Shown one piece after another: positions 31,566 to 54,374 of a stretch of DNA of 64,000 nt; position 1 is the first letter of the stretch; every line of letters begins with the position of its first letter. The DNA comes from Sinorhizobium fredii NGR234. GTDB lineage: Bacteria > Pseudomonadota > Alphaproteobacteria > Rhizobiales > Rhizobiaceae. A program made the position numbers and the translations under genes. Below the pieces are notes generated by a model. That model was not told the origin of the DNA and did not search any database. It saw nothing but the letters and a program-made list of their open reading frames with translations. Location: the NCBI RefSeq assembly GCF_000018545.1, contig NC_012587.1, forward strand, positions 3,438,001 through 3,502,000, read 5' to 3'.

Positions 31566-31573
31566 GATCGACC

Positions 31574-32806: not shown

Positions 32807-32835
32807 GTCAGTTGAAAGAGGCGCGGATAAGACCC

Positions 32836-32996: not shown

Positions 32997-33037
32997 TCGC
33001 GCTCTCGTCGCCACCGCCTTCTCAGCCAATACGCCTC

Positions 33038-33586: not shown

Positions 33587-33732
33587 CGCAGTTACCGGTG
33601 TTGACGTTGTTCGAAATATCGAAACTGTATCAAACTCGATCCATGAAATACAATGACTTAGGCAAACAAAGAAAAGGACTTGTTCGGCATCCGAAATCAT
33701 GGCGTCAATCCCGCACCTGACAGGAGGATGCC

Positions 33733-35070
<1,338 letters not shown>

Positions 35071-35210: not shown

Positions 35211-36389
35211 CTATCCCGCCTGCTCCACCCCCAGAACTCCCAGCAGATTGCGCATCCGTGCTGCCGCCAGTTCCGGCCTGTCGAGCACATTGGCCTGGTC
35301 GGCGAGGCGGAAGATATCCGCATAGTGCAGCAGTCCGCGGGCCGATTGCAGGCCGGCCGGCAGGGTGAAATGGCGCTGGTGGCCGTTCAGCCAGGCGAGA
35401 AAAACGACGCCGGCCTTGTAGTATTGCGTCGGCGCCTCGAAGATCTTGCGTGACAGCGGCACGGTCGGCTCGATGACGCCGCGGAAGGTGGCGAGATCGC
35501 CGGCCGCAAGCGACGCGAGCGCCTTCGAGGCGGAGGGCGCGACGGCGTCGAAGATGCCGAGCAGTGCGTGGCTGTATTTCGTACCGTCTCCCTCGATCAG
35601 TTCCGCATAGTTGAAGTCGTCGCCGGTGAAGCAGAGCACGCCCTCCGGCAGCCGATTGCGCAGCGCCACTTCCTTGGCGTTGTCGAGCAGCGAGATCTTG
35701 ATGCCTTCGACCTTGGCGCTGTTCTCGCCGATGATCGACAGCACCGTTTGCAGAGCCTCGTCGAAATTCTCGGAGCCCCAATAGCCCTTGAGCTGCGGGT
35801 CGAACATGTCGCCGAGCCAATGAAGCACGACCTTGTCCTTCGCCTCACGCAGGATATGGCCGTAGACGCGGCGGTAGTCATCTCCGGAGCGCGCCACGCG
35901 GGCCAGTGCCCGGCTGGCCATTATGATGGCGCGGCCGCCCTCCCCCTCGACGAAGCCGATCTGTTCCTCGTAGGCCGCGATGACGTCGTCGATCGAACGG
36001 GCTTCCGTTGGAGGGAGATGGTCGGTGCCGGCGCCGCAGGCGAGATCCGCACCCGGGACGCTGCGCGCTTCGGCGAGCGAACGGCGGATCAGCTCCTGGG
36101 CGCCTGCCCAGGACAAGCCCATGCCGCGCTGCGCGGTGTCCATCGCCTCGGCGATCTTGAAGCCGAGGCTCCATAGGTGATGGCGAAAGGCCATCGTCGC
36201 CTCCCAGTCGATCGCCGGGTTGCCCCAGGGATCGGCATCGCGCAACGGATCGGAAACCACATGGGCGGCCGCATAGGCGATGCGGTTGAAGCTCGGCACG
36301 GCCGCGGGGCGAGTGATTGGCGTTCCCTGCAGCCGGTATTCTTCGAGCGAGCCGTCCTGGCGCGGCAACAAAAGGCTGGTCATCGGCAT
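35211..36389 (-). CDS. DUF993 protein, dihydrodipicolinate-synthase-like
   Basis: A 392-residue protein that resembles the DUF993 family, distant kin of DHDPS/N-acetylneuraminate lyase aldolases. The segment GIKIS near Lys231 sits like the Schiff-base lysine motif of DHDPS enzymes, suggesting a lysine-dependent aldolase or hydratase, but no reaction is known to me. ATG 36389 follows AGGAGG by four bases; an in-frame ATG two codons later is possible. It is divergent from a LacI-led operon, and a degenerate copy of that operon's operator stands 32-49 bases upstream, so the two units are probably co-repressed and act in one pathway. Confidence 0.8.
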   Translation of the reverse strand: MPMTSLLLPRQDGSLEEYRLQGTPITRPAAVPSFNRIAYAAAHVVSDPLRDADPWGNPAIDWEATMAFRHHLWSLGFKIAEAMDTAQRGMGLSWAGAQELIRRSLAEARSVPGADLACGAGTDHLPPTEARSIDDVIAAYEEQIGFVEGEGGRAIIMASRALARVARSGDDYRRVYGHILREAKDKVVLHWLGDMFDPQLKGYWGSENFDEALQTVLSIIGENSAKVEGIKISLLDNAKEVALRNRLPEGVLCFTGDDFNYAELIEGDGTKYSHALLGIFDAVAPSASKALASLAAGDLATFRGVIEPTVPLSRKIFEAPTQYYKAGVVFLAWLNGHQRHFTLPAGLQSARGLLHYADIFRLADQANVLDRPELAAARMRNLLGVLGVEQAG

Positions 36390-36420
36390 TGATCCTCCTG
36401 AGGTTTGCGGCATCGAATAA

Positions 36421-36438
36421 TTTAGATCGTTCCAAATT
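36421..36438 (-). promoter_or_regulatory. Degenerate LacI-type operator upstream of the DUF993 gene
   Basis: On the minus strand AATTTGGAACGATCTAAA shares its left half and central CG with the perfect palindrome at 36617-36634, matching at about 12 of the 16 central positions. It sits 32 bases upstream of the DUF993 start, suited to block that promoter. Confidence 0.55.
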
Positions 36439-36609
36439 GCAAGGTTGAATATTTTCGAGCTCGCCGAGCGACTCATTGTGGAGCGTGGCTGCTTATCGAC
36501 GCGAAAAACGGCTATTTTGCTGAAATATAAATGCGTTTGGCGAAATTTCGCTCTCAGATGAGGCACCTAAGCTTCGTGCGATGCCTCGAAAAAAGTGAAC
36601 GACGCCCTC

Positions 36610-36638
36610 TTGACGAAATTGGAACGTTCCAATTATTA
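36610..36638 (+). promoter_or_regulatory. Promoter of the LacI operon with perfect 18-bp operator
   Basis: TTGACG (36610-36615) could be the -35 and TTATTA (36633-36638) the -10, with a 17-bp spacer. AATTGGAACGTTCCAATT at 36617-36634 is a perfect palindrome with the central CG step typical of LacI/GalR operators and fills the spacer, so a bound repressor would exclude RNA polymerase. It ends 38 bases before the lacI-type start codon, implying autoregulation of the operon. Confidence 0.75.
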
Positions 36639-36672
36639 AGGATGCAAGAGACGAAATGCCGAGGAGGACGTG

Positions 36673-38714
<2,042 letters not shown>

Positions 38715-38719
38715 AGCGA

Positions 38720-40339
38720 ATGTCCATCAACAAGCATATTTCGCCGGCACAAGCGGCCGGGCTGATCCCGGACGGTGCCGTCGTTTCGGTCTCCTCCTCC
38801 AGCGGCCTCGGCTGCCCGGATCTGATGCTGAAGGCGATCGGCGAGCGGTTCGAGGCGACGGGCCATCCGCGCGATCTCACGACCCTGCATCCGATTGCCG
38901 CCGGCGACATGAGCGGCATCAAGGGCGTCGACTACATCGCCAAAAAGGGCCTGCTGAAGAAGATCATCGGCGGCTCCTACCCGTCCGGACCGTCGAGCGC
39001 CGAGCCGCCGCTGATCTGGCAGATGATCGGCGCCAACGAGGTGGCGGCCTATAACGTTCCCTCCGGCATCCTCTTCGACATGCACCGCGAGGCGGCCGCT
39101 AAACGCCCGGGCGTGATGACCAAGGTCGGGCTCGACACCTTCGTCGATCCTTCGCGCGAAGGCTGCGCCATGAATGCTTCGGCTGCCGCGGAGCCTGTGG
39201 TGAAGAAGATTTCCTTCGAGGGCGAGGACTGGCTCTATTTCAAGGCGATGGCACCTGACGTGGCGATCATCCGTGCCACGACGGCCGACGAGCGCGGCAA
39301 TCTCACCTATGAGCACGAGGGCGCCTATTTGGGCGGGCTCGACCAGGCGCTCGCCGCCCGCAACAATGGCGGCATCGTCATCGCCCAGGTGAAGCGCATC
39401 GCCAAGGAAGGCTCGTTCAAGCCGCACGACGTGCGCGTGCCGGGTGTGCTCGTCGATTACGTCATCGTCGATCCGGACCAGAAGCAGACGACCCAGACGC
39501 TCTATGATCCGGCCATTTCCGGCGAGATCTTCCGACCGCTCGACAGTTTCCGCGTCCCGGAATTCAACATCCAGAAGGTGATCGCGCGCCGCGTCGCCCA
39601 GGAGCTCGAAGCGGGCAGCGCCGTCAATCTCGGCTTCGGCATTTCCGCCAATGTGCCCCGCATCCTCTTGGAAGAGGGGTTGCACGGTGCCGTCACCTGG
39701 GTGATCGAACAGGGCGCGGTCGGCGGCGTGCCGCTCCTGGACTTCGCCTTCGGCTGCGCCTCGAACGCCGACGCCTTCATGCCGTCGCCCTACCAGTTCA
39801 CCTATTTCCAGGGTGCCGGCTTCGACGCCTCGCTGCTCTCCTTCCTGGAGATCGACCGCACCGGCTCTGTCAACGTCTCGAAGCTCAGCTTCCGCCCGCA
39901 TGTGACGGCCGGCGCCGGCGGCTTCGTCGACATCACGGCGCGGGCGAAGAAGATCGTCTTCTCCGGCATGTTCAATGCCGGCGCAAAACTCGGCGTCGCC
40001 GACGGCCAACTCGTCATCGAGAAGGACGGCAAGCTCAAGAAGCTGGTCAACCAGGTCGAGCACGTCACCTTCTCCGGCCGCCGAGCCATCGAGCAGGGGC
40101 AGGACATCACCTATGTCACCGAGCGCTCGGTGATGAAGCTGATGCCGGAAGGCATCGTGCTCACCGAAATCGCGCCAGGGGCCGACCTGCAGACGCATAT
40201 TCTCGATCAGGCGGAATTCCCGCTGATCGTCTCCGACAGGCTGAAGGTCATGGATGCGGCACTGTTCCAAGAGGCGCCGCTGGGACTCACGCTGCCCGCC
40301 AAGCCGCAGCGCGAGATCGCGGGAGGCGCACATGGCTGA
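38720..40339 (+). CDS. Fused acyl-CoA:acetate/3-ketoacid CoA-transferase (YdiF-type)
   Basis: A 539-residue family I CoA-transferase with alpha and beta halves fused. The N-terminal part has IPDGAVVSVSSSSGLGCPD; the active-site glutamate is in EQGAVGG at about residue 330. Such enzymes move CoA between acetyl-CoA or propionyl-CoA and an organic acid. A GTG at 38711 that overlaps the Gfo stop is an alternative start adding three codons; I prefer ATG 38720. The stop overlaps the hydratase start by 8 bp, so expression is coupled. Its place beside an enoyl-CoA hydratase suggests that an acid from the pathway is activated here. Confidence 0.88.
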   Translation: MSINKHISPAQAAGLIPDGAVVSVSSSSGLGCPDLMLKAIGERFEATGHPRDLTTLHPIAAGDMSGIKGVDYIAKKGLLKKIIGGSYPSGPSSAEPPLIWQMIGANEVAAYNVPSGILFDMHREAAAKRPGVMTKVGLDTFVDPSREGCAMNASAAAEPVVKKISFEGEDWLYFKAMAPDVAIIRATTADERGNLTYEHEGAYLGGLDQALAARNNGGIVIAQVKRIAKEGSFKPHDVRVPGVLVDYVIVDPDQKQTTQTLYDPAISGEIFRPLDSFRVPEFNIQKVIARRVAQELEAGSAVNLGFGISANVPRILLEEGLHGAVTWVIEQGAVGGVPLLDFAFGCASNADAFMPSPYQFTYFQGAGFDASLLSFLEIDRTGSVNVSKLSFRPHVTAGAGGFVDITARAKKIVFSGMFNAGAKLGVADGQLVIEKDGKLKKLVNQVEHVTFSGRRAIEQGQDITYVTERSVMKLMPEGIVLTEIAPGADLQTHILDQAEFPLIVSDRLKVMDAALFQEAPLGLTLPAKPQREIAGGAHG

Positions 40340-41111
40340 CGATCGCATCCGCATCGAGATCGAGGGTACCGTCGCGACGATGACGGTGGCTCGGCCGGAA
40401 AAACTCAATGCCTTCGATATCGACATGCTGAAGGCGCTCGCCTCCGCCTGCGACACGGTCGAGGCGAACCGCGATGTGCGGGTCGTGATCCTGACCGGCC
40501 AGGGCAAGGCCTTTTCCGCCGGCGGCGACATCAGGGCCTGGGGCGGCATGGAGCCCGCGGCCTTCGGCCACGACTGGGTGCGCTTCGGCCACCGCGTCTT
40601 CGAGCGGCTGGCGACGCTGCGCATGCCGGTGATCGCCGCCTTGAACGGCCATGCGCTCGGCGGCGGCCTGGAGCTGGCAGCGGCCGCGGATATCCGCATC
40701 GCCGAAAAACAGGTGAAGATCGGCCTGCCGGAAACCAGTCTCGGCATGGTGCCCGGCTGGTCCGGCACGCAACGCCTCGTGTCGCGCTTCGGCGCGCAGG
40801 TCGTCCGCCGCATGGTGCTCGGCGGCGAGATGTTCACGGCGGAGGAGGCGAAGGCCGAAGGCCTCGTCGATGCCGTTGTCGAGACGGGCACGGTGATGAC
40901 GGCGGCGCGGGCCTATGCAGCGCGTGTCGCGTCGCGTGGTCCGGCGGCATTGGAAATATCGAAGCTGATGATCGCTACGGCGAACGGCGAGGACAAGGGC
41001 GCGGCCATCGAAGCCTTGGGCTCGATCCTCGTCGCCAAGACCGGCGACCTCAAGGAGGGCGTCGCGGCCTTCAGCGAAAAGCGCGAAGCGCGCTTCAAGG
41101 GAGAATGGTGA
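40332..41111 (+). CDS. Enoyl-CoA hydratase/isomerase (crotonase family)
   Basis: A 259-residue crotonase: LTGQGKAFSAGGDIRAW forms part of the oxyanion hole, HALGGGLELAAAADIRIA carries the first catalytic glutamate region and GLPETSLGMVPGWSGTQRL the second. Both acidic positions appear present, consistent with hydratase activity on a 2-enoyl-CoA, though other crotonase reactions are possible. ATG 40332 (GGGAGGC upstream) lies inside the CoA-transferase gene; the earlier open frame is shadow. The stop and the next start share one base (TGATG). Confidence 0.9.
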   Translation: MADDRIRIEIEGTVATMTVARPEKLNAFDIDMLKALASACDTVEANRDVRVVILTGQGKAFSAGGDIRAWGGMEPAAFGHDWVRFGHRVFERLATLRMPVIAALNGHALGGGLELAAAADIRIAEKQVKIGLPETSLGMVPGWSGTQRLVSRFGAQVVRRMVLGGEMFTAEEAKAEGLVDAVVETGTVMTAARAYAARVASRGPAALEISKLMIATANGEDKGAAIEALGSILVAKTGDLKEGVAAFSEKREARFKGEW

Positions 41112-42619
41112 TGACCGTACTGGTGAGGCCGAAGCCGCTCGGCGACGACAAGGTCCGCGAATTCCGCATGCTGATCGACGGCCAATGGATGGCCGGCGCC
41201 GAGGGCCGGACGATCGAGCGCGTGGCGCCCGGGCACGGCGTCGTCGTCAGCCGTTACCAGGCGGCGACGATGGTGGATGCCGAGCGCGCCATCGCCGCGG
41301 CGCGGCGTGCCTTCGACGACGGCCCCTGGCCGCGCATGACCGCGTCGGAACGCTCGCTGATCCTGCTCCGCGCCGCCGACATGATCGCCGCCCGGGCCGA
41401 CGAGCTCGCCTATCTCGACGCGATCGAATCCGGCAAGCCGATCAGCCAGGCCAAGGGCGAACTGGCAGGCGCCGCCGATATCTGGCGCTATGCGGCGGCC
41501 CTTGCCCGCGAGCTTTCCGGCGAGAGCTACAACACGCTCGGCGAGGGCACGCTCGGCGTCGTGCTGCGCGAGGCGATCGGCGTCGTCTCGATCATCACGC
41601 CCTGGAATTTCCCATTCCTGATCGTCAGCCAGAAATTACCCTTCGCGCTCGCCGCCGGCTGCACGACGGTGGTCAAGCCGTCGGAGCTCACCTCCGCCTC
41701 GACGCTCGTTCTCGGCGAAATCCTCGAGGCCGCCGGCGTGCCGGCCGGCGTCGTCAACATCATCGTCGGTACCGGCCCGGAAGTCGGCGCGCCGCTTGCC
41801 ACCCACCCGGATGTCGACATGATCTCCTTCACCGGCTCGACCGGTATCGGCCGGCTGACGATGGCGAACGCGGCGCAAACCCTGAAGAAGGTCTCGCTCG
41901 AACTCGGCGGCAAGAACCCGCAGATCGTCTATCCCGACGCGGATCTCGACGCGTTCATCGATGCGGCCGTCTTCGGCGCCTATTTCAATGCCGGCGAATG
42001 CTGCAATGCCGGCTCGCGGCTGATCCTGCATCGTGACATCGCCGAGGAGGTGACGGCGCGCATTACCAGCCTCTCCGCCAAGGTCAAGGTCGGCGATCCG
42101 CTCGATCCCGAGACGCAGGTCGGCGCGATCATCACGCCGCAGCATCTGGAAAAGATCGCCGGCTATGTAACGGCCGCGGCGGGCGAGGGTGCGGCCGTCA
42201 GCCATGGTGGCACCGCACTCGATCTCGGCATGGGCCAGTTCATGGCGCCGACCATTCTCTCGGCCGTCCGGCCGGAGATGGCGGTGGCCCGCGAGGAGGT
42301 GTTCGGGCCGGTCCTTTCGGTCCTCACCTTCGAGACGACCGAGGAGGCGATCCGCATCGCCAACTCCATCGATTACGGGCTCTCGGCCGGCGTCTGGAGC
42401 CGCGATTTCGATACATGCCTGACGATCGGGCGGCGCGTGCGCGCCGGGACCGTCTGGATGAACACCTTCATGGACGGCGCCTGCGAACTGCCCTTCGGCG
42501 GCTACCGCCAGTCGGGGCTCGGCCGCGAACTCGGCCGGCATGCGGTGGAGGACTACACCGAGACCAAGACGCTCAACATGCATATCGGCCAGCGCACCAG
42601 CTGGTGGATGCCGCGCTGA
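41111..42619 (+). CDS. NAD(P)-dependent aldehyde dehydrogenase
   Basis: A 502-residue ALDH: cofactor segment ITPWNFPFLI, FTGSTGIG, general base in SLELGGKNPQIV, and active-site FNAGECCNAGSRL with Cys298 aligning with the catalytic cysteine of class 1/2 enzymes. It resembles betaine/gamma-aminobutyraldehyde-type dehydrogenases, but the substrate should follow the operon, perhaps an aldehyde released by the DUF993 aldolase-like enzyme. ATG 41111 has AGGGAG eight bases upstream; an ATG two codons earlier is possible but too close to that site. It is the last gene of the operon. Confidence 0.9.
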   Translation: MTVLVRPKPLGDDKVREFRMLIDGQWMAGAEGRTIERVAPGHGVVVSRYQAATMVDAERAIAAARRAFDDGPWPRMTASERSLILLRAADMIAARADELAYLDAIESGKPISQAKGELAGAADIWRYAAALARELSGESYNTLGEGTLGVVLREAIGVVSIITPWNFPFLIVSQKLPFALAAGCTTVVKPSELTSASTLVLGEILEAAGVPAGVVNIIVGTGPEVGAPLATHPDVDMISFTGSTGIGRLTMANAAQTLKKVSLELGGKNPQIVYPDADLDAFIDAAVFGAYFNAGECCNAGSRLILHRDIAEEVTARITSLSAKVKVGDPLDPETQVGAIITPQHLEKIAGYVTAAAGEGAAVSHGGTALDLGMGQFMAPTILSAVRPEMAVAREEVFGPVLSVLTFETTEEAIRIANSIDYGLSAGVWSRDFDTCLTIGRRVRAGTVWMNTFMDGACELPFGGYRQSGLGRELGRHAVEDYTETKTLNMHIGQRTSWWMPR

Positions 42620-42725
42620 GATCGGGATCGGGAGGCAAGTGGGAATGGGCGCGTTGGCACGGTTTGCAGGCACGATGGGGAAGGAAGGGCGTATCCCCTG
42701 CCTTTCCGCTTCGGCTGCGCGGGCT

Positions 42726-43793
42726 TCAGGCGTCGGTGGCAGCTGGCTCCGATTTGAAGCGAAGCTCGGGCTCGAGCAGCAATTGCAGCTCGCCGATCTC
42801 GGTGCTGCCGCCGATGCGGCGCAGCAGGATGCGCCCCATGTGCTCGCCGGTTTCGGTCAGGTCCTCGTAGATCGTGTCGACGCGCGGCTGGATGGCGCCG
42901 AGCAGCGGCGACGTCTGCTTCGCGACGATGTCGTATTCGACGCCGAGGGTCAGGCCGCAGTCGCTCATGCCGGTGATCGTCGCGAGCGCACAGACCTCGC
43001 CGCCGCAGGTGAAGCCATCAGGCGGATCCGGGTCGGCCTGGCGCCGGCGGATCCGGTCGCGGATCGCGCCGGCCGGGCTGTCGAGGTCGATGTCGGTGAG
43101 AATTTCATAGGCGCAGCCCGCCTCGCGCACTGCCGTCATGAAGCCATGCAGGATATGGCCGGCAAAGGTGAAACCGGCCGGGCCGCTGATCAGCGCCGGC
43201 TTCCGCCGCCCCTTGGCTATCAGCCGCCGCGTCGCCTCATAGGTGAAGGTGAAATTGTCGTAGTCGACGAAAGGATGGGCGGTGGCGAGCTCGGTTCTGC
43301 CATGGGTGACGAACGGAAAGCCGGCCTCCGAAAGCAGCTTGACGCGCGGATCGAGCGGTTCGGTGCGCGAGAAGATCAGCCCGTCGGCCATGCCGTTGCG
43401 GATGATGTAGTTCACCGCATCGATATTCGCGGCGTCGAGGAAATTCGGCATGACGATCAGGTGGTAGGCGGTGCCCTGCAAGGCCCTGGCGATGCCGGCC
43501 ATGACGGAGGTTCCGTAGCCGAGGATCTCTTCATGCGGCTCGAGCAGCACGGCGATCACATTCGTCCGGCCGGTCTTCAGGCGTTGGGCAGCGCGGTCCG
43601 GCGAATAGCCGATGTCGAGCGCCACCTGGCGGACGCGATGCCGCGTCTCGATAGAGATCTGCGGCGCGTCCGCAAGCGCCCGCGACACGGTGGTGACGGC
43701 CAGTCCGGTAATATCGGCAATGGTGCGCAGGGTCGGCTTGCCGCGTCCTGGCGCGGCACTTCCCGGGCGGACGGGTTTAGAAGGATCGGCCAA
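42726..43793 (-). CDS. LacI-family regulator of the sugar ABC operon
   Basis: A LacI/GalR regulator of about 355 residues: helix-turn-helix KPTLRTIADITGLAVTTVSR, hinge region IGYSPDRAAQRLKTGRTN, then the effector domain. The start is uncertain: no ATG precedes the DNA-binding part, and TTG 43793 has AGGAAAG seven bases upstream; TTG 43856 would give 376 residues. It is divergent from the ABC transporter operon at 44128, and two identical 12-mers in the gap (43869 and 44006) are its probable operators. It has an unusual ~20-residue basic, proline-rich head before the helix-turn-helix. Confidence 0.88.
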   Translation of the reverse strand: MADPSKPVRPGSAAPGRGKPTLRTIADITGLAVTTVSRALADAPQISIETRHRVRQVALDIGYSPDRAAQRLKTGRTNVIAVLLEPHEEILGYGTSVMAGIARALQGTAYHLIVMPNFLDAANIDAVNYIIRNGMADGLIFSRTEPLDPRVKLLSEAGFPFVTHGRTELATAHPFVDYDNFTFTYEATRRLIAKGRRKPALISGPAGFTFAGHILHGFMTAVREAGCAYEILTDIDLDSPAGAIRDRIRRRQADPDPPDGFTCGGEVCALATITGMSDCGLTLGVEYDIVAKQTSPLLGAIQPRVDTIYEDLTETGEHMGRILLRRIGGSTEIGELQLLLEPELRFKSEPAATDA

Positions 43794-43868
43794 ACGGGTG
43801 CTTTCCTGCAAGCGGTCAAGAGCGGCATTTGTAACGTGACGCGAACCGATACGCAATCGTATGATGCA

Positions 43869-43880
43869 AACGTTTTAAAT
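43869..43880. promoter_or_regulatory. Candidate LacI operator, regulator-proximal copy
   Basis: AACGTTTTAAAT, 76 bases upstream of the regulator start, is identical to the 12-mer at 44006-44017. The flanks (ATGCA before, CGCTA after) differ, so the identity is confined to the motif. Confidence 0.55.
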
Positions 43881-43986
43881 CGCTATACCACCACTTTTTT
43901 GCTGCATCGCAGCATGCATTGCATGTCGTATAGTGCAGTGAAATCAGTCGGTTTCGGTCGGCGGACGGCGGAAGCTCGCGGTCCGC

Positions 43987-44017
43987 TTGACTTGCGGTGA
44001 TTTGTAACGTTTTAAAT
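43987..44017 (+). promoter_or_regulatory. Promoter and operator of the sugar ABC operon
   Basis: TTGACT (43987-43992) is a good -35; TTTAAA near 44011-44016 could be the -10 at 18-bp spacing. The 12-mer AACGTTTTAAAT (44006-44017) overlaps this -10. The rest of the 43794-44127 gap contains no gene. Confidence 0.55.
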
Positions 44018-44127
44018 TGTGCGGGCGGCGCATGCCGCAAGCCCAGACTGCCCCTTGGGAGGGGGCAGACAATCCAAAAGAGCGGGAGGAGCTTCCGCTT
44101 CGGTAACTTGCAAACGGGAGGAAAACG

Positions 44128-45372
44128 ATGCGCAAGTTGATGACGACGACGGCTGTTGCAGCATTGATGTTGGCGGCGACCGCCGCGCGCGCAGCAGAGA
44201 ACGTGGAAGTGCTGCACTGGTGGACGTCCGGCGGCGAGGCGGCGGCACTCGACGTTCTGAAGAAGGATCTGGAAGGCAAGGGCATCAGCTGGACCGACAT
44301 GCCGGTTGCCGGCGGTGGCGGCACGGAGGCCATGACGGTACTTCGCGCCCGCGTCACGTCCGGCAATGCGCCCACGGCGGTGCAGATGCTCGGCTTCGAC
44401 ATCCTCGACTGGGCCAAGGAAGGCGCACTCGGCAACCTTGACGACATTGCCGCCAAGGAAGGCTGGGACAAGGTCGTTCCGACGGCGCTTCAGCAGTTCT
44501 CGAAATATGACGGCCACTGGATCGCCGCGCCGGTCAACGTCCATTCGACCAACTGGGTCTGGATCAACAAGGCCGCCCTCGACAAGGCCGGCGGCAAGGA
44601 GCCGGCGAACTGGGATGAGCTGATCGCGCTGCTCGACAAGTTCAAGGAGCAGGGCATCACGCCGGTCGCCCACGGCGGTCAGCCCTGGCAGGACGCGACG
44701 ATCTTCGACGCGGTCGTGCTGTCGCTCGGCAACGACGTCTACAAAAAGGCCTTCATCGACCTCGATCCGGCAACGCTCGGCGGCGACAAGATGAAGGAAG
44801 CCTTCGACCGGATGACGAAGCTCAGATCCTATGTCGACGACAACTTCTCCGGCCGCGACTGGAACCTCGCTTCGGCGATGGTCATCGAGAACAAGGCCGG
44901 CCTGCAGTTCATGGGCGACTGGGCGAAGGGTGAGTTCCTGAAGGCGAAGAAGGTGCCCGGCACCGATTTTGTCTGCATGCGCTTCCCGGGAACGCAAGGT
45001 TCGGTCACCTTCAACTCCGACCAGTTCGCGATGTTCAAGGTCTCGGATGACAAGGTCCCGGCGCAGTTGCAGATGGCCTCGGCGATCGAAAGCCCGACCT
45101 TCCAGTCGGCCTTCAACGTCGTCAAGGGATCGGTTCCGGCCCGCACCGACGTTCCGGACACCGATTTCGACGCCTGCGGCAAGAAGGGCATCAAGGATCT
45201 GGCCGAAGCCAACGCCAACGGCACGCTCATGGGCTCCATGGCGCATGGGCATGCCAATCCGGCAGCGGTCAAGAACGCCATCTACGACGTCGTGACCCGC
45301 CAGTTCAACGGCGAGCTCAGCTCGGACGAGGCGGTGAAGGAACTCGCCGCGGCGGTCGAGGCCGCGAAGTAA
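44128..45372 (+). CDS. Sugar ABC transporter substrate-binding protein (GtsA-like)
   Basis: A 414-residue family 1 binding protein with signal peptide [20 protein letters not shown] cleaved after RA. The mature start [19 protein letters not shown] and the segments [31 protein letters not shown] and [13 protein letters not shown] are very like Pseudomonas GtsA as I recall it, which binds glucose and mannose. GGGAGGA precedes the ATG. It is first in the operon of two permeases and an ATPase; a palindromic repeat pair follows it. Aldohexose uptake is the likely role, but rhizobial members may bind other sugars. Confidence 0.9.
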
Positions 45373-45388
45373 GCGACGCGAGGGATTT

Positions 45389-45585: not shown

Positions 45586-45622
45586 CCCGCGGCACGAACG
45601 AAACGATACGGTGGTAACAAAC

Positions 45623-46501
45623 ATGGATAGCCGCACCCGGCTGCAGGAGCTTTTGCCAAAGCTCGTGCTTGCCCCCAGCTTTCTCATAGTTCTGGTGTTC
45701 GTCTACGGCTTCATAGTCTATACGGGCTTCCTGTCGCTGACGGACAGCAAGATGCTGCCGTCCTACAATTTCGTCGGCTTGAGCAACTACAGCAGGCTGT
45801 GGGCGCTGCCGCACTGGTGGAGGGCGGTCAGCAACCTGGCGATCTTCGCCACGCTCTATATCGTCATCTGCTCGGTGCTCGGCCTGGCACTGGCGATCCT
45901 GCTCGACCAGAAGATCCGCGCTGAAGGGTTCCTGCGGCCGATCTATCTCTATCCGATGGCGCTCTCCTTCATCGTCACGGGAACCGCCTGGAAGTGGTTC
46001 CTCGATCCCGGCATCGGCCTTGAGAACACCATGCACCTCTGGGGCTGGGAGAGCTTCTCCTTCAACTGGATCAAGGACCGCAACTACACGATCTACTGCG
46101 TCGTCATCGCAGCCGTCTGGCAGTCGACCGGCTTCATCATGGCAATGTTCCTGGCGGGGCTTCGCGGCGTCGACAACGAGATCATCAAGGCCGCCCAGAT
46201 CGACGGGGCGACGACGCCGACCATCTACCGGCGGATCATCATTCCGCTGATGCGGCCCGTCTTCCTCTCGGCCTTCGTCGTCCTCGCTCACCTTGCGATC
46301 AAGGCCTACGACCTGATCATCGCTTTGACCGGCGGCGGGCCGGGGCAGGCGACCGAACTGCCGGCGACCTTCATGTATTCCTACACCTTCACGCGCAATC
46401 AGATGGCGGTCGGCGCCTCGTCGGCGATCATCATGCTCATCATGATCTTCTCGATCATCGTTCCCTATCTCTATTCCGAAATCCGGGGAGGAAAACGCTG
46501 A
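45623..46501 (+). CDS. Sugar ABC transporter permease 1 (GtsB-like)
   Basis: A 292-residue MalF-type permease with six hydrophobic segments, starting LVLAPSFLIVLVFVYGF, and the EAA-type ATPase-contact loop around EIIKAAQIDGATTPTIYRRIIIPLMRP. It forms the inner-membrane channel with the next gene product. ATG 45623 is chosen; GTG 45611 would add four residues. Its stop shares a base with the next start (TGATG). Confidence 0.9.
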   Translation: MDSRTRLQELLPKLVLAPSFLIVLVFVYGFIVYTGFLSLTDSKMLPSYNFVGLSNYSRLWALPHWWRAVSNLAIFATLYIVICSVLGLALAILLDQKIRAEGFLRPIYLYPMALSFIVTGTAWKWFLDPGIGLENTMHLWGWESFSFNWIKDRNYTIYCVVIAAVWQSTGFIMAMFLAGLRGVDNEIIKAAQIDGATTPTIYRRIIIPLMRPVFLSAFVVLAHLAIKAYDLIIALTGGGPGQATELPATFMYSYTFTRNQMAVGASSAIIMLIMIFSIIVPYLYSEIRGGKR

Positions 46502-47382
46502 TGGGCGCTCCCAGTCCAGAGAACGTCATCTCGCACAACCGCCTGACCCGGGCGCTGATCTACCTGGCGCTGATCATTTTCGCGCTCTATTCGCTGCTGC
46601 CGCTCTACGTCATGCTGGTGAATTCCCTGAAGCCGCTCGACGAAATCCGCCAGGGCGGCATGCTGAACCTGCCGCAAACCTGGACCATCGAGCCCTGGCT
46701 TTCGGCCTGGTCGACGGCGCAGATCGGCGTGCAGCCGACCGGCCTCCGTCCGTTCTTCATCAACTCCATCCTGATGGTCGTTCCGGCCGTGGCGATCTCG
46801 ACCTTCATCGGCGCGCTGAACGGCTACGTCCTGACGAAGTGGCGTTTCCCCGGAGCCAACATCTTCTTCGGCATGCTGCTGTTGTCCTGCTTCATCCCGT
46901 TCCAGATCGTGCTGATCCCGATGGCCCGCATCCTCGGTATTTTCGGCCTCGCCGGGTCGATCTGGGGGCTGATCCTCGTCCATGTGGTCTACGGCATCGG
47001 CTTCACGACGCTCTATTTCCGCAACTACTACGAGGCCTTCCCGACCGAGCTGGTGCGCGCCGCGCAGATCGACGGGGCGAGCTTCTTCCAGATATTCTGG
47101 CGAATCATGCTGCCGTCCTCCGGGCCGATCATCGTCGTCTCCGTCATCTGGCAGTTCACCAATATCTGGAACGACTTCCTGTTCGGAGCCTCGTTCTCCG
47201 GGCCCTATTCGACACCGATGACGGTGGCGCTCAACAACCTTGTGAGCTCGTCGACCGGCGTCAAGGAATACAACGTCCACTTCGCGGGCGCGATCCTCGC
47301 CGCCCTGCCAACGCTCATCGTCTACATCGTGTCCGGCCGCTACTTCGTCCGCGGGCTGATGTCCGGCGCCGTGAAAGGATAA
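46501..47382 (+). CDS. Sugar ABC transporter permease 2 (GtsC-like)
   Basis: A 293-residue MalG-type permease: LIYLALIIFALYSLLPLYVM is the first helix and ELVRAAQIDGASFFQIFWRI the EAA loop; ends in RYFVRGLMSGAVKG, a typical tail of this family. It is coupled to permease 1 by a one-base overlap and lies 4 bp from the ATPase gene. Confidence 0.92.
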   Translation: MGAPSPENVISHNRLTRALIYLALIIFALYSLLPLYVMLVNSLKPLDEIRQGGMLNLPQTWTIEPWLSAWSTAQIGVQPTGLRPFFINSILMVVPAVAISTFIGALNGYVLTKWRFPGANIFFGMLLLSCFIPFQIVLIPMARILGIFGLAGSIWGLILVHVVYGIGFTTLYFRNYYEAFPTELVRAAQIDGASFFQIFWRIMLPSSGPIIVVSVIWQFTNIWNDFLFGASFSGPYSTPMTVALNNLVSSSTGVKEYNVHFAGAILAALPTLIVYIVSGRYFVRGLMSGAVKG

Positions 47383-47386
47383 CTCC

Positions 47387-48499
47387 ATGTCATTCCTGAA
47401 AATCAGCAATCTGCGCAAATCCTACGGCTCGCTGGAGATCTTGAAGGACATCAATCTCGAGATCGAAAAGGGTGGGTTCCTCGTGCTCGTCGGCCCGTCC
47501 GGCTGCGGCAAGTCGACTCTCCTGAACACGATCGCCGGCCTGGAACCGATCACCTCGGGCGACATCGCCATCAACGGCCGCTCGGTGTCGGGGCTGCACC
47601 CGTCGAAGCGCGACATCGCCATGGTGTTCCAGTCCTACGCGCTCTATCCGAACATGACGGTCGCCGGAAACATCGCCTTCGGCATGGAAATCCGCGGCGT
47701 GCCGAAGGAGGAGCGCGACAAGGCGATCAAGCAGGTTGCCGACATGCTGCAGATCGGTCACCTGCTCGAGCGCAAGCCGAGCCAGCTCTCCGGCGGCCAG
47801 CGCCAGCGCGTCGCCATGGGCCGGGCGCTGGTGCGCAATCCGCAGGTCTTTCTTTTCGACGAGCCCTTGTCGAACCTCGATGCCAAGCTGCGCGTCGACA
47901 TGCGCACCGAGATCAAGCGGCTGCATCACCGAATGAAGACGACGATCGTCTATGTAACGCATGACCAGATCGAAGCGATGACGCTGGCAACCAAGATCGC
48001 CGTGCTGAAGGACGGCGTGCTGCAGCAGTTCGGTACACCGGCCGAGATCTACAACAACCCGGCCAATATGTTCGTCGCGGATTTCATGGGATCGCCGGCG
48101 ATGAACCTGTTGAAGGCGCGCATCGAAGCCTCCGGGCCGAACGTCGCCGTGACGCTGGAGCGGCCGAATGCCGAGCCGCTGAGGCTCGCGGTGCCGCATG
48201 ACGGCGCGCTCTCCTCCTATGCCGGCCGCGACGTCGTCTTCGGCATCCGTCCGGAGGCGCTCACCGATCCGGACGGTGCCGACCGCAACGCCAAGTTCGT
48301 CGCCGAGGGCGATTGCCTGATCGAGGTGGTCGAGCCGGCCGGTTCCGACACCTTCGCGGTCACCCGGCTCGGCGGCAAGGAAATCGTGGCAAGACTCCGC
48401 GCCGACGCGCGCATCGCGCCCGGCCAGACGTCGCGGCTCGCCTTCAACCTCGACAAGGCCGTGTTCTTCGACCCTGAGAGCCAGATGCGGATCGCATGA
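47387..48499 (+). CDS. Sugar ABC transporter ATP-binding protein (MalK/UgpC family)
   Basis: A 370-residue ATPase: Walker A GPSGCGKSTLL near residue 38, signature LSGGQRQRVAMGRALVR, Walker B VFLFDEPLSNLD, switch histidine in VTHDQIEAM, and a C-terminal OB-fold (TOBE) domain as in MalK (FGIRPEALTDPD). It energises the two permeases upstream. Its stop overlaps the GMC oxidoreductase start by 4 bp (ATGA), tying transport to that enzyme. Confidence 0.94.
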   Translation: MSFLKISNLRKSYGSLEILKDINLEIEKGGFLVLVGPSGCGKSTLLNTIAGLEPITSGDIAINGRSVSGLHPSKRDIAMVFQSYALYPNMTVAGNIAFGMEIRGVPKEERDKAIKQVADMLQIGHLLERKPSQLSGGQRQRVAMGRALVRNPQVFLFDEPLSNLDAKLRVDMRTEIKRLHHRMKTTIVYVTHDQIEAMTLATKIAVLKDGVLQQFGTPAEIYNNPANMFVADFMGSPAMNLLKARIEASGPNVAVTLERPNAEPLRLAVPHDGALSSYAGRDVVFGIRPEALTDPDGADRNAKFVAEGDCLIEVVEPAGSDTFAVTRLGGKEIVARLRADARIAPGQTSRLAFNLDKAVFFDPESQMRIA

Positions 48500-50016
48500 G
48501 CCAGAGCATGGAGAGCCAGCCGGATATCGTCATCATCGGCTCGGGCGTCGGCGGCGCCACCGTGGCTGCCGGACTTGCCGCTTCGGGTGCCGAAATCCTC
48601 ATCCTCGAGGCGGGTCACCACATCGAGGACCTGCCGGTCAACCGCGACCAGCGGGCGATCTTCCAGCGCGGCCATTTCCGGCCGAAGGAGACCTGGTACG
48701 AGGCGGGCGGCGCCGGCTTCAACCCCGGCAACTACTACAATGTCGGCGGCAACTCGAAATTCTACGGCGCGGTGCTCACCCGCTACCGCCGCGAGGACTT
48801 CGAGGAGATGCGCCACCTCGAAGGCGTCTCGCCCGCCTGGCCGTTTGCCTACGAGGAGCTCGAGCCGTGGTACGCCAAGGCGGAGGAACTCTATCAGGTG
48901 CGTGGGAGGCTGGGCGAGGACCCGACCGAACCAGCGCATTCGAACGACTATCCGCACGGGCCGGTGCCGGATGAGCCGGCGATCGCCAAGGTTCGCAAGC
49001 GCCTGGCAGCGATCGGTATGCACCCCTATTCGCTGCCGCTCGGCATCGATATCGACCGCTGGCTCGCCAAGGGCAAGACGCCCTGGGATGCACATCCGAA
49101 CAGTTTCGACGGCAAGATGGATGCGGAAACGGCCGCGCTGACCGCTGCACTCGAATATCCGAATGTGCGGCTGCAGACCGGCTCGCGCGTCACCCGGCTG
49201 ACGACAGCCCCGGATGGCAAGGCGATCTCCTCCGTGCATTATGTCAAGGACGGGGTCGAGCATAGCATCTCGCCGAAGCTCGTCATCCTCTCGGCCGGCG
49301 CCGTGCAATCGGCCGTGCTGCTCCTGCGCTCGGCCGACGAGCGCAACCCGGCCGGTCTCGCCAACCGCTCCGACCAGGTCGGCCGCAATTTCATGAATCA
49401 CAATTCGAGCGCGGTGATCGCGCTCAGCCCCTGGTACCGCAACGACTCCGTCTATCAGAAGACCTTCGGCCTCAACGATTTCTATCTCTCCGACGGCGAG
49501 GGCGGGCCGCCGCTCGGCAATATCCAGCTTCTCGGCCGTGTCTCCGGCGCAATCCTGAAAGCCAACATGCCGGCCATGCCCGAGTGGCTCCTCAACCAGG
49601 TCTCGGCCCGCGGAATCGATTTCTACGCGATGAGCGAGGACCTGCCGTCGCCGGAAAGCCGCGTCATGGTCGACGGCGAGCGCATCCTGCTCAAATGGGT
49701 GCGCACCAACTGGCAAGCCCACCTCGATCTCGTATCCAGGCTGAAGGCGGTGCTGAAAAAGGCCGGCTTCCCGATCGTTCTGGCCAGGGCCTTCGACAAG
49801 CGAACGCCGTCGCACCAATGCGGCACGGTCAGGATCGGCAATGACGCCGCGGACGCGCCGCTCGACGTTTATTGCCGCGCCTTCGATCATCCGAACCTCT
49901 TCGTTGTCGATGCCGGCTTCCTGCCGACGTCGGCCGCCGCCAATCCGGCGCTGACGGTTGCGGCCCAGGCGCTGCGCGTCGCTGATCACATCGTCAATGA
50001 GGATCTTCGGGCATGA
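48496..50016 (+). CDS. GMC-family FAD oxidoreductase 1
   Basis: A 506-residue flavoprotein. The FAD Rossmann motif is IIGSGVGGATVAAGLAASGA, a GNYYNVGGNSKFYGAVLTRY segment matches the second GMC region, and the C-terminal domain has the active-site pair in SHQCGTVRIG (histidine) and AAANPALT (asparagine). There is no signal peptide, so it should act in the cytoplasm with an unseen acceptor. GMC enzymes oxidise alcohol groups of sugars, choline and polyols. Overlaps of 4 bp with both ATPase and SDR genes imply it works on the imported sugar; oxidation at C-3 or C-1 is possible but not shown. Confidence 0.88.
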   Translation: MSQSMESQPDIVIIGSGVGGATVAAGLAASGAEILILEAGHHIEDLPVNRDQRAIFQRGHFRPKETWYEAGGAGFNPGNYYNVGGNSKFYGAVLTRYRREDFEEMRHLEGVSPAWPFAYEELEPWYAKAEELYQVRGRLGEDPTEPAHSNDYPHGPVPDEPAIAKVRKRLAAIGMHPYSLPLGIDIDRWLAKGKTPWDAHPNSFDGKMDAETAALTAALEYPNVRLQTGSRVTRLTTAPDGKAISSVHYVKDGVEHSISPKLVILSAGAVQSAVLLLRSADERNPAGLANRSDQVGRNFMNHNSSAVIALSPWYRNDSVYQKTFGLNDFYLSDGEGGPPLGNIQLLGRVSGAILKANMPAMPEWLLNQVSARGIDFYAMSEDLPSPESRVMVDGERILLKWVRTNWQAHLDLVSRLKAVLKKAGFPIVLARAFDKRTPSHQCGTVRIGNDAADAPLDVYCRAFDHPNLFVVDAGFLPTSAAANPALTVAAQALRVADHIVNEDLRA

Positions 50017-50786
50017 CGGACAAGGCACGCCCCGTCGCGATCGTCACCGGCGGCCGCCGCGGCATCGGCCTCGGCATTGCCCGAGCCCTTGCGGCGGGCG
50101 GATTCGACATCGCCATCACCGGCATCGGCGATGCGGAAGGCGTGGCGCCGGTCATTGCGGAGCTCGGCACGCTGGGCGCGCGCGCCATCTTCCTCCGGGC
50201 CGATGTCGCCGACCTTTCGGGCCATCAGGCAACCGTCGATGCGGTGATCGCGGCCTTCGGCCGGATCGACTGCCTCGTCAACAATGCCGGCATTGCCTCC
50301 GTCGTGCGCGGCGATTTTTTCGATCTCAAGCCGGAGAATTTCGACACGATCGTTGGCATCAACCTGCGCGGCACGGTCTTCTTCACCCAGGCGGTGCTGA
50401 AAGCGATGCGCGCCATCGCTCCGAGCGCGCCGCGTTCGATCATCAACATCACCTCGGTCTCCGCGGCGATGACGTCGCCGGAACGGCTCGACTATTGCAT
50501 GAGCAAGGCGGGGCTCGCGGCCTTCACCCAGGGCCTGGCGCTGAGGCTCGCCGAGACCGGCATCTCGGCCTTCGAGGTGCGCCCCGGCATCATCCGCTCC
50601 GATATGACCGCGGCCGTGTCCAGCAAATACGACGCGCTGATCGCCGGTGGGCTGGTGCCGGTCAAGCGCTGGGGCGAGCCCGAGGATATCGGCAATATCG
50701 TCGCCGGCCTCGCCAGCGGCCAATTCGCCTTCGCCACGGGCTCGGTCATCCAGGCCGATGGAGGCCTGTCGATCAGCCGGTTGTAA
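50013..50786 (+). CDS. Short-chain dehydrogenase/reductase (FabG-like)
   Basis: A 257-residue classical SDR: cofactor motif TGGRRGIGLGIA, NNAG in LVNNAGIASVV, catalytic serine in INITSVSA and the Y-x-x-x-K pair in LDYCMSKAG; the tail SVIQADGGLSISRL is typical. The annotation name 3-ketoacyl reductase would be misleading here: coupling to a GMC oxidase and sugar transporter (ATGA overlap with GMC 1) points to a sugar, keto-sugar or polyol substrate. Confidence 0.9.
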   Translation: MTDKARPVAIVTGGRRGIGLGIARALAAGGFDIAITGIGDAEGVAPVIAELGTLGARAIFLRADVADLSGHQATVDAVIAAFGRIDCLVNNAGIASVVRGDFFDLKPENFDTIVGINLRGTVFFTQAVLKAMRAIAPSAPRSIINITSVSAAMTSPERLDYCMSKAGLAAFTQGLALRLAETGISAFEVRPGIIRSDMTAAVSSKYDALIAGGLVPVKRWGEPEDIGNIVAGLASGQFAFATGSVIQADGGLSISRL

Positions 50787-51013: not shown

Positions 51014-52669
51014 ATGAGCTATGACTATATCATCACCGGTGCCGGCCCGGCCGGCTGCGTGCTCGCCAACCGGCTGAGCGAGGATCCGGCCGTCAAGGTG
51101 CTGCTGCTCGAGGCGGGCGGCGGCGATTGGAACCCGCTGTTCCACATGCCGGCCGGCTTCGCCAAGATGACCAAGGGCGTGGCGAGCTGGGGCTGGAATA
51201 CGGTGCCGCAGAAGCACATGAAGGGCAGGGTGCTGCGCTATACGCAGGCCAAGGTGATCGGCGGCGGCTCGTCGATCAATGCGCAGCTCTACACCCGCGG
51301 GAATGCCGTCGACTATGATCTCTGGGCGAGCGAGGACGGCTGCGCCGGCTGGGACTATCGCAGCGTGCTTCCCTATTTCAAGCGGGCCGAGGACAACCAG
51401 CGCTTCGCCGACGACTATCATGCCTATGGCGGACCGCTCGGCGTCTCGATGCCGGTCTCGACGCTGCCGATCTGCGATGCCTATATCCGCGCCGGCCAGG
51501 AACTCGGCATTCCCTATAATCACGATTTCAACGGCAGGCAGCAGGCGGGCGTCGGCTTCTATCAGCTCACCCAGCGCAACCGCCGCCGCTCCTCCGCATC
51601 GCTTGCCTATCTGTCGCCGATCAAGGATCGCAAGAACCTGACGGTGCGCACCGGTGCCCGCGTCGCCCGCATCGTGCTCGAAGGCCGCCGCGCCGTCGGC
51701 GTCGAAGTGGTGACCGCCAAGGGCAGCGAAGCGATCCGCGCCGAACGGGAGGTGCTGGTTTCGTCCGGTGCGATCGGTTCGCCGAAACTGCTGCTGCAGT
51801 CCGGCATCGGGCCGGCCGATCACCTGCGTTCGGTGGGCGTCGAGGTCCGCCACGATCTCCCCGGCGTCGGCAGCAATCTTCAGGACCATCTCGACCTGTT
51901 CGTGATTTCCGAATGCACTGGCGACCACACCTACGACAACGTCGCCAAGCTGCACCGCACGCTCTGGGCGGGGCTGCAATATGTGCTGTTCCGCAGCGGC
52001 CCGGTCGCCTCGTCGCTCTTCGAGACCGGCGGCTTCTGGTATGCCGATCCGAATGCCCGTTCGCCGGACATCCAGTTCCATCTCGGCCTCGGTTCGGGCA
52101 TCGAGGCGGGCGTGGCGCGGCTGAAGAATGCCGGCGTCACGCTCAACTCCGCCTATCTGCACCCGCGCTCGCGCGGCACCGTCCGGCTTTCCTCGGCCGA
52201 TCCGGCGGCAGCACCGCTGATCGACCCGAACTACTGGGAGGATGCGCATGACCGCAGGATGTCGCTCGAAGGGCTGCAGATCGCCCGCGAGATCATGCAG
52301 CAGCCGGCGCTCGAGCCTTATGTCATGGCCGAACGGTTGCCGGGGAGGGATATCAAGACCGAGGAGCAACTCTTCGACTATGGCTGCGCCAATGCCAAGA
52401 CGGATCATCACCCGGTCGGCACCTGCAAGATGGGCACGGATCAGACGGCGGTCGTCGATCTCGACCTGAAGGTCCGCGGGCTCGAGGGCCTGCGGGTCTG
52501 CGACAGTTCGGTGATGCCGCGCGTGCCGTCCTGCAACACCAACGGGCCGACCATCATGATGGGCGAGAAAGGGGCCGATATAATCCGCGGCCTGCCGCCA
52601 CTGCCGCCGGCGGTGTTCCAGCATGAGCGCAACGACACGCGGCCCAGGGCCCGCGCCGAAATTAACTGA
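51014..52669 (+). CDS. GMC-family FAD oxidoreductase 2 (choline-dehydrogenase-like)
   Basis: A 551-residue GMC flavoprotein of the BetA-like branch: YIITGAGPAGCVLANRLSED, VIGGGSSINAQLYTRGNAVD (first GMC signature), SSGAIGSPKLLLQSGIG (second signature), and active-site HHPVGTCKMG plus SCNTNGPTIMMGEKGA at the C-terminus. It is distinct from GMC 1 by size and motifs, so the two are not a recent tandem duplication. Likely an alcohol or polyol dehydrogenase; substrate unknown. It lies 11 bp before the Dabb-domain gene. Confidence 0.88.
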   Translation: MSYDYIITGAGPAGCVLANRLSEDPAVKVLLLEAGGGDWNPLFHMPAGFAKMTKGVASWGWNTVPQKHMKGRVLRYTQAKVIGGGSSINAQLYTRGNAVDYDLWASEDGCAGWDYRSVLPYFKRAEDNQRFADDYHAYGGPLGVSMPVSTLPICDAYIRAGQELGIPYNHDFNGRQQAGVGFYQLTQRNRRRSSASLAYLSPIKDRKNLTVRTGARVARIVLEGRRAVGVEVVTAKGSEAIRAEREVLVSSGAIGSPKLLLQSGIGPADHLRSVGVEVRHDLPGVGSNLQDHLDLFVISECTGDHTYDNVAKLHRTLWAGLQYVLFRSGPVASSLFETGGFWYADPNARSPDIQFHLGLGSGIEAGVARLKNAGVTLNSAYLHPRSRGTVRLSSADPAAAPLIDPNYWEDAHDRRMSLEGLQIAREIMQQPALEPYVMAERLPGRDIKTEEQLFDYGCANAKTDHHPVGTCKMGTDQTAVVDLDLKVRGLEGLRVCDSSVMPRVPSCNTNGPTIMMGEKGADIIRGLPPLPPAVFQHERNDTRPRARAEIN

Positions 52670-53105: not shown

Positions 53106-54374
53106 ATGGCATTGACCGATCCGCGCCGCTTTCTGACCTCCCTCTTCGAGGCCGCCGTCGTGGCGGCAGATCCCTACGCCGCCATCCGTGCCCACCTGCC
53201 GGCGCGGCCGAAGGGCCGCACCATCGTCGTCGGCGCCGGCAAGGCGGCAAGCCAGATGGCCGCCGCCTTCGAGCGGCTCTGGGACGGCCCGATTGAAGGG
53301 GCCGTGGTCGCCCGCCATGGGCCGGTCGAGAAGTGCGAGCGTATCAAAGTGCTGCAATCGGCGCATCCGGTGCCGGACGAGGCAGGGCTTGTCGCCTCCT
53401 CAGCGCTCCTCGATCTCGTCAAGGGGCTGACAGCCGACGACCTCGTGGTGGCGCTGATCTCCGGCGGCGGCTCGGCGCTGCTGCCGGCGCCGCCGAATGG
53501 TTTGACGCTTGACGACGAAATGGCCGTCAACAAGGCGCTGCTTGCCTCCGGTGCGCCGATCTCGGCGATGAACGTGGTGCGCAAGCATGTCTCGCGAATC
53601 AAGGGCGGGCGCTTAGCGCTTGCCGCTGCGCCGGCGCGCGTCGTCAGTCTCGTCGTCTCGGATGTCCCGGGCGACAACCCGGCCTTCGTCGCCTCCGGCC
53701 CGACCGTATCGGACCTGTCGAGCCTCGAGGAGGCGCGCGAGATCGTTTCCCGCTATGCCATGGCGTTGCCGGAGCGGGTGATGGCGCATCTTTCCGCCGA
53801 TGCGGCGCGGGCGCCGAGCCCCGATGATGCCGCCTTTGCCGGCAACGAGGTTCATGTGATCGCCTCGGCAAGCGTGTCGCTCGAGGCGGCGGCGGCGCGC
53901 GCCAGAGAGTCCGGCATCGAGGCGATGATCCTCTCCGACGCGATCGAGGGCGAGGCGCGCGACATCGGCCGGATGCATGCCGCACTCGCCCGCGAGGTGG
54001 CACTGCGCGGCCGCCCGTTTAGCAAGCCCGTCGTGCTGCTTTCCGGCGGCGAGACGACCGTGACGATTTCCAAGGACTACGGCAAGGGCGGCCGCAACAG
54101 CGAGTTCCTGCTGTCGCTGGCGCTCGACATCGACGGTGTTGCCGGCATCGATGCGCTCGCCGCCGATACGGACGGCATCGACGGTTCGGAAGACAATGCC
54201 GGCGCCTTTGCCGACGGGGCGAGCGTGGCCCGCATGCGGGCGGCAGGCGTCGACCCGCGCGCCCATCTCGCCCGCCACGACGCCTGGTCGGCGTTTTCCG
54301 CCAGCGGCGACCTGTTCGTACCCGGGCCGACCGGGACGAATGTCAACGATTTCCGGGCGATGCTGGTGCGCTGA
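53106..54374 (+). CDS. Glycerate 2-kinase (MOFRL/GckA-TtuD family)
   Basis: A 422-residue protein with the DUF4147 N-terminal domain (TIVVGAGKAASQMAAAFE, ISGGGSALLPAP, NVVRKHVSRIKGGRLA) and the C-terminal MOFRL domain (VLLSGGETTVTI, GKGGRNSEFLLSLAL, DTDGIDGSEDNAGAF). The family phosphorylates D-glycerate to 2-phosphoglycerate; older annotations call it hydroxypyruvate reductase. The start has no clear ribosome site, since the RIME element runs up to within 15 bases of it. It could finish breakdown of a sugar acid made by the upstream oxidases, or be independent. Confidence 0.88.
   Translation: MALTDPRRFLTSLFEAAVVAADPYAAIRAHLPARPKGRTIVVGAGKAASQMAAAFERLWDGPIEGAVVARHGPVEKCERIKVLQSAHPVPDEAGLVASSALLDLVKGLTADDLVVALISGGGSALLPAPPNGLTLDDEMAVNKALLASGAPISAMNVVRKHVSRIKGGRLALAAAPARVVSLVVSDVPGDNPAFVASGPTVSDLSSLEEAREIVSRYAMALPERVMAHLSADAARAPSPDDAAFAGNEVHVIASASVSLEAAAARARESGIEAMILSDAIEGEARDIGRMHAALAREVALRGRPFSKPVVLLSGGETTVTISKDYGKGGRNSEFLLSLALDIDGVAGIDALAADTDGIDGSEDNAGAFADGASVARMRAAGVDPRAHLARHDAWSAFSASGDLFVPGPTGTNVNDFRAMLVR

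Follow-up and report, generated by a model that had tools for sequence, protein, structure and literature searches.

Here we describe a block of 16 genes in Sinorhizobium fredii NGR234 that includes an ortholog of 1,5-anhydro-D-fructose reductase (AFR), an enzyme that reduces 1,5-anhydrofructose, a sugar derived from starch, together with a sugar importer, a coenzyme A (CoA) arm and a protein of the DUF993 family. It occupies positions 35211-54374 of a 64,000-nucleotide stretch of contig NC_012587.1 (3,438,001 to 3,502,000; hereafter the window). The block is one conserved, co-regulated unit that includes DUF993, and it is conserved in root-nodule bacteria. From what is observed, namely the AFR orthology, this conserved unit, the DHDPS fold and lysine of DUF993 and the intact motifs of the other enzymes, we infer a chemistry by which the block could quite possibly, though short of probably, import and aerobically catabolize 1,5-anhydrohexitols (1,5-anhydrofructose, anhydromannitol and perhaps anhydroglucitol).

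In aerobic Rhizobiaceae, anhydrofructose is reduced to anhydromannitol by a manno-selective reductase (PMC12441222, in excerpt). The enzyme after AFR is thought to be P450-like, yielding mannose by C1 hydroxylation, and is still unidentified (section 5.1 of the same excerpt, citing Kuhn 2006). The same excerpted review, which concerns neutropenia, states that, for gut microbes to remove 1,5-anhydroglucitol, an enzyme active in aerobic conditions would be required. The block supplies candidate genes for the aerobic rhizobial route after AFR, in a genus that includes a standard laboratory species, and DUF993 gains a candidate class of activity. No anhydrofructose operon or CoA route was among the matches listed in our searches of open-licence papers. 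The statement in an earlier sequence-only reading of the window that no described pathway has this gene set is half right, as one enzyme (AFR) and its substrate are known.

A conserved, co-regulated block in root-nodule bacteria

Gene calls at 33-55 kb together with Pfam and NCBIfam scans are the basis of the gene list (Table 1), and the Pfam matches of all six core genes (PF06187, LacI, GFO_IDH_MocA, CoA_trans, ECH_1 and Aldedh) are above cut-off. AGGAGG precedes the DUF993 start, an ATG at 36389. On the opposite strand, LacI overlaps the Gfo gene by 4 bp, the CoA-transferase gene follows after a gap of 5 bp from its ATG (an alternative GTG at 38711 gives a 4-bp overlap), the crotonase gene overlaps it by 8 bp, and the aldehyde dehydrogenase (ALDH) gene overlaps the crotonase gene by 1 bp (an alternative ATG at 41105 is possible); the overlaps of 4, 8 and 1 bp given by the sequence-only reading are exact. 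Three further overlaps lie downstream (permease/permease, 1 bp; ATPase/GMC506, 4 bp; GMC506/SDR, 4 bp), and the Dabb gene starts 11 bp past GMC551.

Of 275 relatives of the window DUF993 that were found, we used the best 80, the closest genome contigs, and mapped them with the window proteins. All six core genes lie within 9 kb in 76 of these 80 loci; three exceptions end at contig ends (L048, L050 and L102) and one is without Gfo (L110, in which the ABC genes sit on the DUF993 side). In 77/80 loci, AFR has LacI on one side and the CoA genes on the other. A solute-binding gene follows past ALDH in 75 of the 76 six-gene loci (the exception is L109), with a second LacI between the two in 56 of these 75 and absent there in 19. 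In an S. meliloti Ak57 record, the DNA bounded by DUF993 and glycerate kinase runs in the reverse orientation while its neighbours are kept (an aminotransferase at one end; M3 peptidase, LysE and leuB at the other), and insertion-sequence genes flank both ends of the inverted stretch. Because 35211-54374 is inverted there as a piece, we treat its 16 genes as one block. The boundary drawn after six genes in the sequence-only reading was therefore too narrow, given that the ABC importer, GMC506, SDR, GMC551, Dabb and glycerate kinase genes belong too. In the window, an AptA-type aminotransferase flanks the block on the DUF993 side and an M3 peptidase gene (minus strand) lies beyond glycerate kinase. 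DUF993 is on the M3 side in 27/80 loci and the aminotransferase appears at strong score in 0/80, so the window's gene order is the unusual one.

A 14-base palindrome, the putative operator, lies near both divergent starts, of DUF993 and of LacI. Allowing up to 2 mismatches, the pattern occurs at four places in the 6.9-Mb genome, two of them at this locus, but a reversed control pattern also gave four matches, and we therefore reject its genome-wide rarity as evidence. Among the relatives, at least two sites (up to 3 mismatches) were found in 78/78 measurable LacI-DUF993 intergenic regions (78 of the 80 loci; L048 and L050 were not measurable); in 200 mononucleotide shuffles, the average number of loci with one or more sites was 0.96. 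The same palindrome is present in 9/9 other clusters checked, including clusters without AFR and those of Microvirga and Peteryoungia. The co-regulation of six genes, with DUF993 under the same operator type, was thus rightly proposed. A weak third site, with 3 mismatches, lies at 44002 ahead of the ABC operon. The excerpt of PMC4052901 does not name the LacI regulator of the block.

The available excerpts of the literature on twelve S. meliloti locus tags of the region assign no pathway to them. From gene order, we take smc04396 to be the solute-binding gene of the block and SMc04400 to be AFR. The former, annotated as a sugar transporter gene, is induced by dextrin (PMC4960864, in excerpt). 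As a separate observation, the proteins SMc04132-04139 and SMc04390-04392 are listed together in an excerpted table, where their log2 changes in the comparison of phbC phaR with phbC are negative (PMC12542648); they come from both S. meliloti DUF993 regions, the second placed by gene-order mapping.

Table 1 Genes and putative operators of the block, in window coordinates
Feature	Position	Strand	Basis or remark
DUF993 protein with a DHDPS fold; putative lyase of Schiff-base type (2-keto-3-deoxy acid aldolase)	35211..36389	-	PF06187
Operator near DUF993, TTAGATCGTTCCAA	36422..36435		2 mismatches
Operator near LacI operon, TTGGAACGTTCCAA	36619..36632		0 mismatches
LacI-family regulator	36673..37716	+	Pfam LacI
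AFR ortholog	37713..38714	+	Pfam GFO_IDH_MocA; 4koa and 2glx scores; K94, H180
CoA-transferase, YdiF/FadX-like, fused	38720..40339	+	Pfam CoA_trans
Crotonase, both catalytic-type glutamates	40332..41111	+	Pfam ECH_1
ALDH, near L-sorbosone dehydrogenase	41111..42619	+	Pfam Aldedh
Second LacI-family regulator	42726..43856	-	Pfam scan
Sugar ABC transporter, solute-binding protein	44128..45372	+	Pfam scan
Sugar ABC permease 1	45611..46501	+	
Sugar ABC permease 2	46501..47382	+	
Sugar ABC ATPase, UgpC/MalK type	47387..48499	+	
GMC506, GMC flavoenzyme near FAD-glucose and fructose dehydrogenases	48496..50016	+	
SDR, PRK12745 family	50013..50786	+	
GMC551, GMC alcohol dehydrogenase	51014..52669	+	
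Dabb (A/B barrel) protein, 107 aa	52681..53004	+	PF07876, 62 bits
Glycerate kinase (MOFRL/DUF4147)	53106..54374	+	falls within the inverted block

Adjoining the block, the window carries a FAD-linked oxidase, an ALDH, two aminotransferases and a PuuR-like regulator at 28581-35070; one of the aminotransferases is of AptA type (727 bits versus a cut-off of 500).

AFR, the CoA arm and DUF993

The window Gfo protein aligns with two crystallised AFRs at 676 bits over 333 aa (4koa) and 612 bits over 331 of 333 aa (2glx), and K94 and H180, which we take to be AFR active-site residues, are present. Judged by this full-length match of very high score, it is an AFR ortholog. The Gfo step had been read as an oxidation, but the crystallised orthologs are named reductases. 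The sequence-only reading saw intact active sites in the other enzymes, and their motifs are indeed intact: VIEQGAVGG in the CoA-transferase (E at 330; 377 bits to YdiF), presumably holding the catalytic glutamate of Family I, GGGLE at 110 and PETSLG at 133 in the crotonase, presumably with the two catalytic glutamates, and GECC in ALDH, which we likewise take to be an active-site motif. Genes for the oxidation, CoA activation and hydratase chemistry proposed in that reading are present. Dabb genes occur in related clusters too.

DUF993 has a TIM barrel and a C-terminal helical domain, as in the DHDPS superfamily (Foldseek matches). The DHDPS-like lysine of the GIKIS motif, already recognized by the sequence-only reading, is K231 on strand 6; it is present in 31/31 aligned DUF993 rows and aligns with the invariant lysine of six DHDPS-family proteins. 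Pfam PF00701, the DHDPS family, does not match DUF993, for which PF06187 is the only match at E <= 0.001. The crystal structure 4dnh of a DUF993 protein has been titled 'hypothetical protein' since 2012, and the term DUF993 was not found in open-licence papers. Cluster and fold together suggest that DUF993 may be a 2-keto-3-deoxygluconate aldolase; no other candidate for C-C cleavage was seen among the block's protein families, and a glycerate kinase nearby fits a three-carbon product.

DUF993 occurs in 42 of 397 Pseudomonadota genomes sampled evenly. Of the 44 loci read, window included, 16 belong to the window cluster type and 2 to a related CoA type. A different type (382-aa Gfo, DUF993, AP_endonuc_2 and often an enolase-like gene) accounts for 23, and the others are one fragment with AP_endonuc_2 and two loci in which DUF993 stands alone. 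A general partnership of DUF993 with the LacI operon is rejected, given that 28/44 loci are without that operon. Taken over the whole family, this goes half way to the refutation named in the sequence-only reading, but the partnership is kept in the window lineage (76/80). In a tree of 31 DUF993 rows, all 12 window-type rows fall on one side of a branch with support 97/94. The window's own genome has a second DUF993 copy (G000:C2:1832949-1834091; locus L170, 9444-10607), which sits in a different cluster next to sugar ABC genes and genes for a 382-aa Gfo and for enolase-like and AP_endonuc_2 proteins. On Sagittula and Janthinobacterium plasmids (L116, L118), DUF993 occurs with acyl-CoA dehydrogenase, CoA-transferase, crotonase, aldo/keto reductases and AP_endonuc_2, with no annotated thiolase within the stretch shown. 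Microvirga (L112) carries a heme-degrading-domain gene, along with one for Dabb, after DUF993 and glycerate kinase.

Context was counted by tblastn at self-chosen thresholds (E 1e-8 for Dabb, otherwise 1e-15 or 1e-20) in stretches of up to 20 kb, which may cut clusters; AFR absence rests on five scored candidates per genome and, within clusters, on separate checks. An ortholog of the CoA-transferase (at least 63% identity; next 45%) was found in 26 genomes, with the crotonase adjoining in all. Sixteen of these have AFR. In 14 of the sixteen, DUF993 belongs to the same cluster; in G238 it sits in a matching half-cluster on a separate contig, and in G324 it is found at another place. Of the 10 genomes that lack AFR, 2 (G161, G306) have DUF993 in the cluster and 8 do not. 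The association of AFR with in-cluster DUF993 has a Fisher value of 2.3e-4, with relatedness ignored. Among clusters that show both GMC506 and GMC551, the SDR gene lies between them in 8/8 long-form clusters, window included, and is missing there in 5/5 short-form clusters (G407, G419, G122, G230, G417). Because of this pattern of co-absence, to which G316 is an exception, AFR, SDR and DUF993 seem to extend a CoA core.

A possible pathway and its alternatives

In our reading, the ABC system would import an anhydro sugar, GMC506 may form anhydrofructose by oxidising C2 of anhydroglucitol, and AFR would reduce anhydrofructose to anhydromannitol. GMC551 and ALDH would then oxidise the C6 hydroxyl, the only primary alcohol, to an acid, and the CoA-transferase would make its CoA thioester, in which the C4 hydroxyl becomes the beta-hydroxyl. 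Its elimination by the crotonase would give an enol ether, which could be hydrated, perhaps by the Dabb protein or non-enzymatically, and open to 2-keto-3-deoxyhexonate. DUF993 would form a Schiff base with 2-keto-3-deoxy-D-gluconate and split it into pyruvate and D-glyceraldehyde, the latter being oxidised to glycerate and phosphorylated by glycerate kinase; SDR has no step in this scheme. The order Gfo, DUF993, ALDH, CoA in the sequence-only reading is replaced accordingly. By a Fischer-projection argument, anhydro-D-mannuronate read from C6 to C1 should correspond to 3-deoxy-D-erythro-hex-2-ulosonate, that is 2-keto-3-deoxygluconate, while the gluco epimer should give the L-threo form and not 2-keto-3-deoxy-D-gluconate; that only the manno configuration does so would explain a manno-selective reductase in the block. 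It is doubtful, if conceivable, that the block thereby holds a new ring opening without an anomeric carbon, in which an anhydrohexitol is converted to a uronic-type acid and its CoA thioester, crotonase beta-elimination collapses the ether ring to 2-keto-3-deoxygluconate, and DUF993 acts as a Schiff-base aldolase. If true, such a ring opening would be an oxygen-tolerant counterpart of the glycyl radical pathway.

Several points weigh against this pathway. No enzyme is established for the enol-ether hydration, and the normal site of water addition by crotonases is the beta carbon. Seven genomes have the CoA-transferase without AFR or in-cluster DUF993 (G082, G248 and the five short-form genomes), and the CoA arm therefore works without both; G316 has the CoA arm and SDR, no AFR, and DUF993 located elsewhere. 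G161 and G306 have DUF993 without AFR, and G043, G098 and G400 have AFR without the CoA arm. In G400, the AFR homolog overlaps a gene of the GlcNAc-2-epimerase/mannose-isomerase family, with an HbpS-like gene in front (L194, 9553-11738), which fits an osone or mannose role. Dextrin induction leaves the true inducer unnamed. DUF993 has H190 in 31/31 rows at the position of the DHDPS strand-5 tyrosine, and the published C1 hydroxylation to mannose is an alternative, with P450 genes in 15/16 AFR genomes. In clusters lacking DUF993, an ordinary 2-keto-3-deoxygluconate kinase and aldolase could replace it.

The cluster might instead degrade another polyol or osone (2-keto sugar), with AFR reducing a different 2-keto intermediate, the GMC/ALDH/CoA arm oxidising a primary alcohol followed by a beta-oxidation-like step, and DUF993 cleaving a different 2-oxo acid. 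We regard this as possible but somewhat doubtful: the CoA arm without AFR in 10/26 genomes, the two related DUF993 clusters that add acyl-CoA dehydrogenase (one with MaoC, the other with a different sugar importer) and the AFR neighbour in G400 all favour it, whereas the full-length, very high-scoring AFR orthology and an operator identical in the AFR-containing and AFR-less clusters tested do not. That the P450-like enzyme makes mannose from anhydromannitol, with the remainder of the cluster having some other role, is unlikely. The P450 count neither supports nor excludes this published route, but AFR keeps its place next to LacI and the CoA genes, no P450 place listed for the 16 AFR genomes falls in the cluster, and G254 has AFR and the cluster with no P450 match. 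The DHDPS superfamily includes dehydratases and hydratases, and the invariant histidine would suit such an activity for DUF993; we consider it improbable, as the cluster families offered no other C-C cleavage candidate and the glycerate kinase fits a three-carbon product. A glycyl radical or PTS route is rejected, as the Pfam scans showed neither family in the cluster genes they covered. C-glycoside deglycosylation needs AP_endonuc_2 and a small partner, and that system is rejected too, as the window cluster has no AP_endonuc_2.

Comparison with known systems

The closest known system is the Sinorhizobium AFR route (PDB 2glx, 4koa), which shares with the window an orthologous Gfo enzyme, the bacterial family and an aerobic setting. 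However, the published route ends in mannose via an oxygenase, whereas the window cluster has a CoA arm and DUF993 and no P450. The anaerobic gut pathway for 1,5-anhydroglucitol and anhydromannitol (YbiW/PflD) acts on the same substrate class (PMC12441222, in excerpt) but proceeds by PTS phosphorylation and a glycyl radical enzyme that is sensitive to oxygen, neither family being among the window cluster genes scanned. DUF993 shares the fold and the strand-6 lysine with the DHDPS superfamily (DapA, YagE, MosA) but differs in an N-terminal extension, a histidine for the tyrosine and a Pfam family of its own, PF06187. The GMC and ALDH enzymes resemble the L-sorbose/L-sorbosone dehydrogenase pair, in which a sugar CH2OH is oxidised to the acid, although in the window cluster CoA activation would then follow. 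Other DUF993 clusters of the SMc04132/PDB 4dnh type (382-aa Gfo, AP_endonuc_2, often enolase-like) likewise combine DUF993 with a Gfo-family enzyme, but the CoA-transferase, crotonase and ALDH of the window type were not found in their 20-kb stretches in the even sample, and mark the window cluster off from them.

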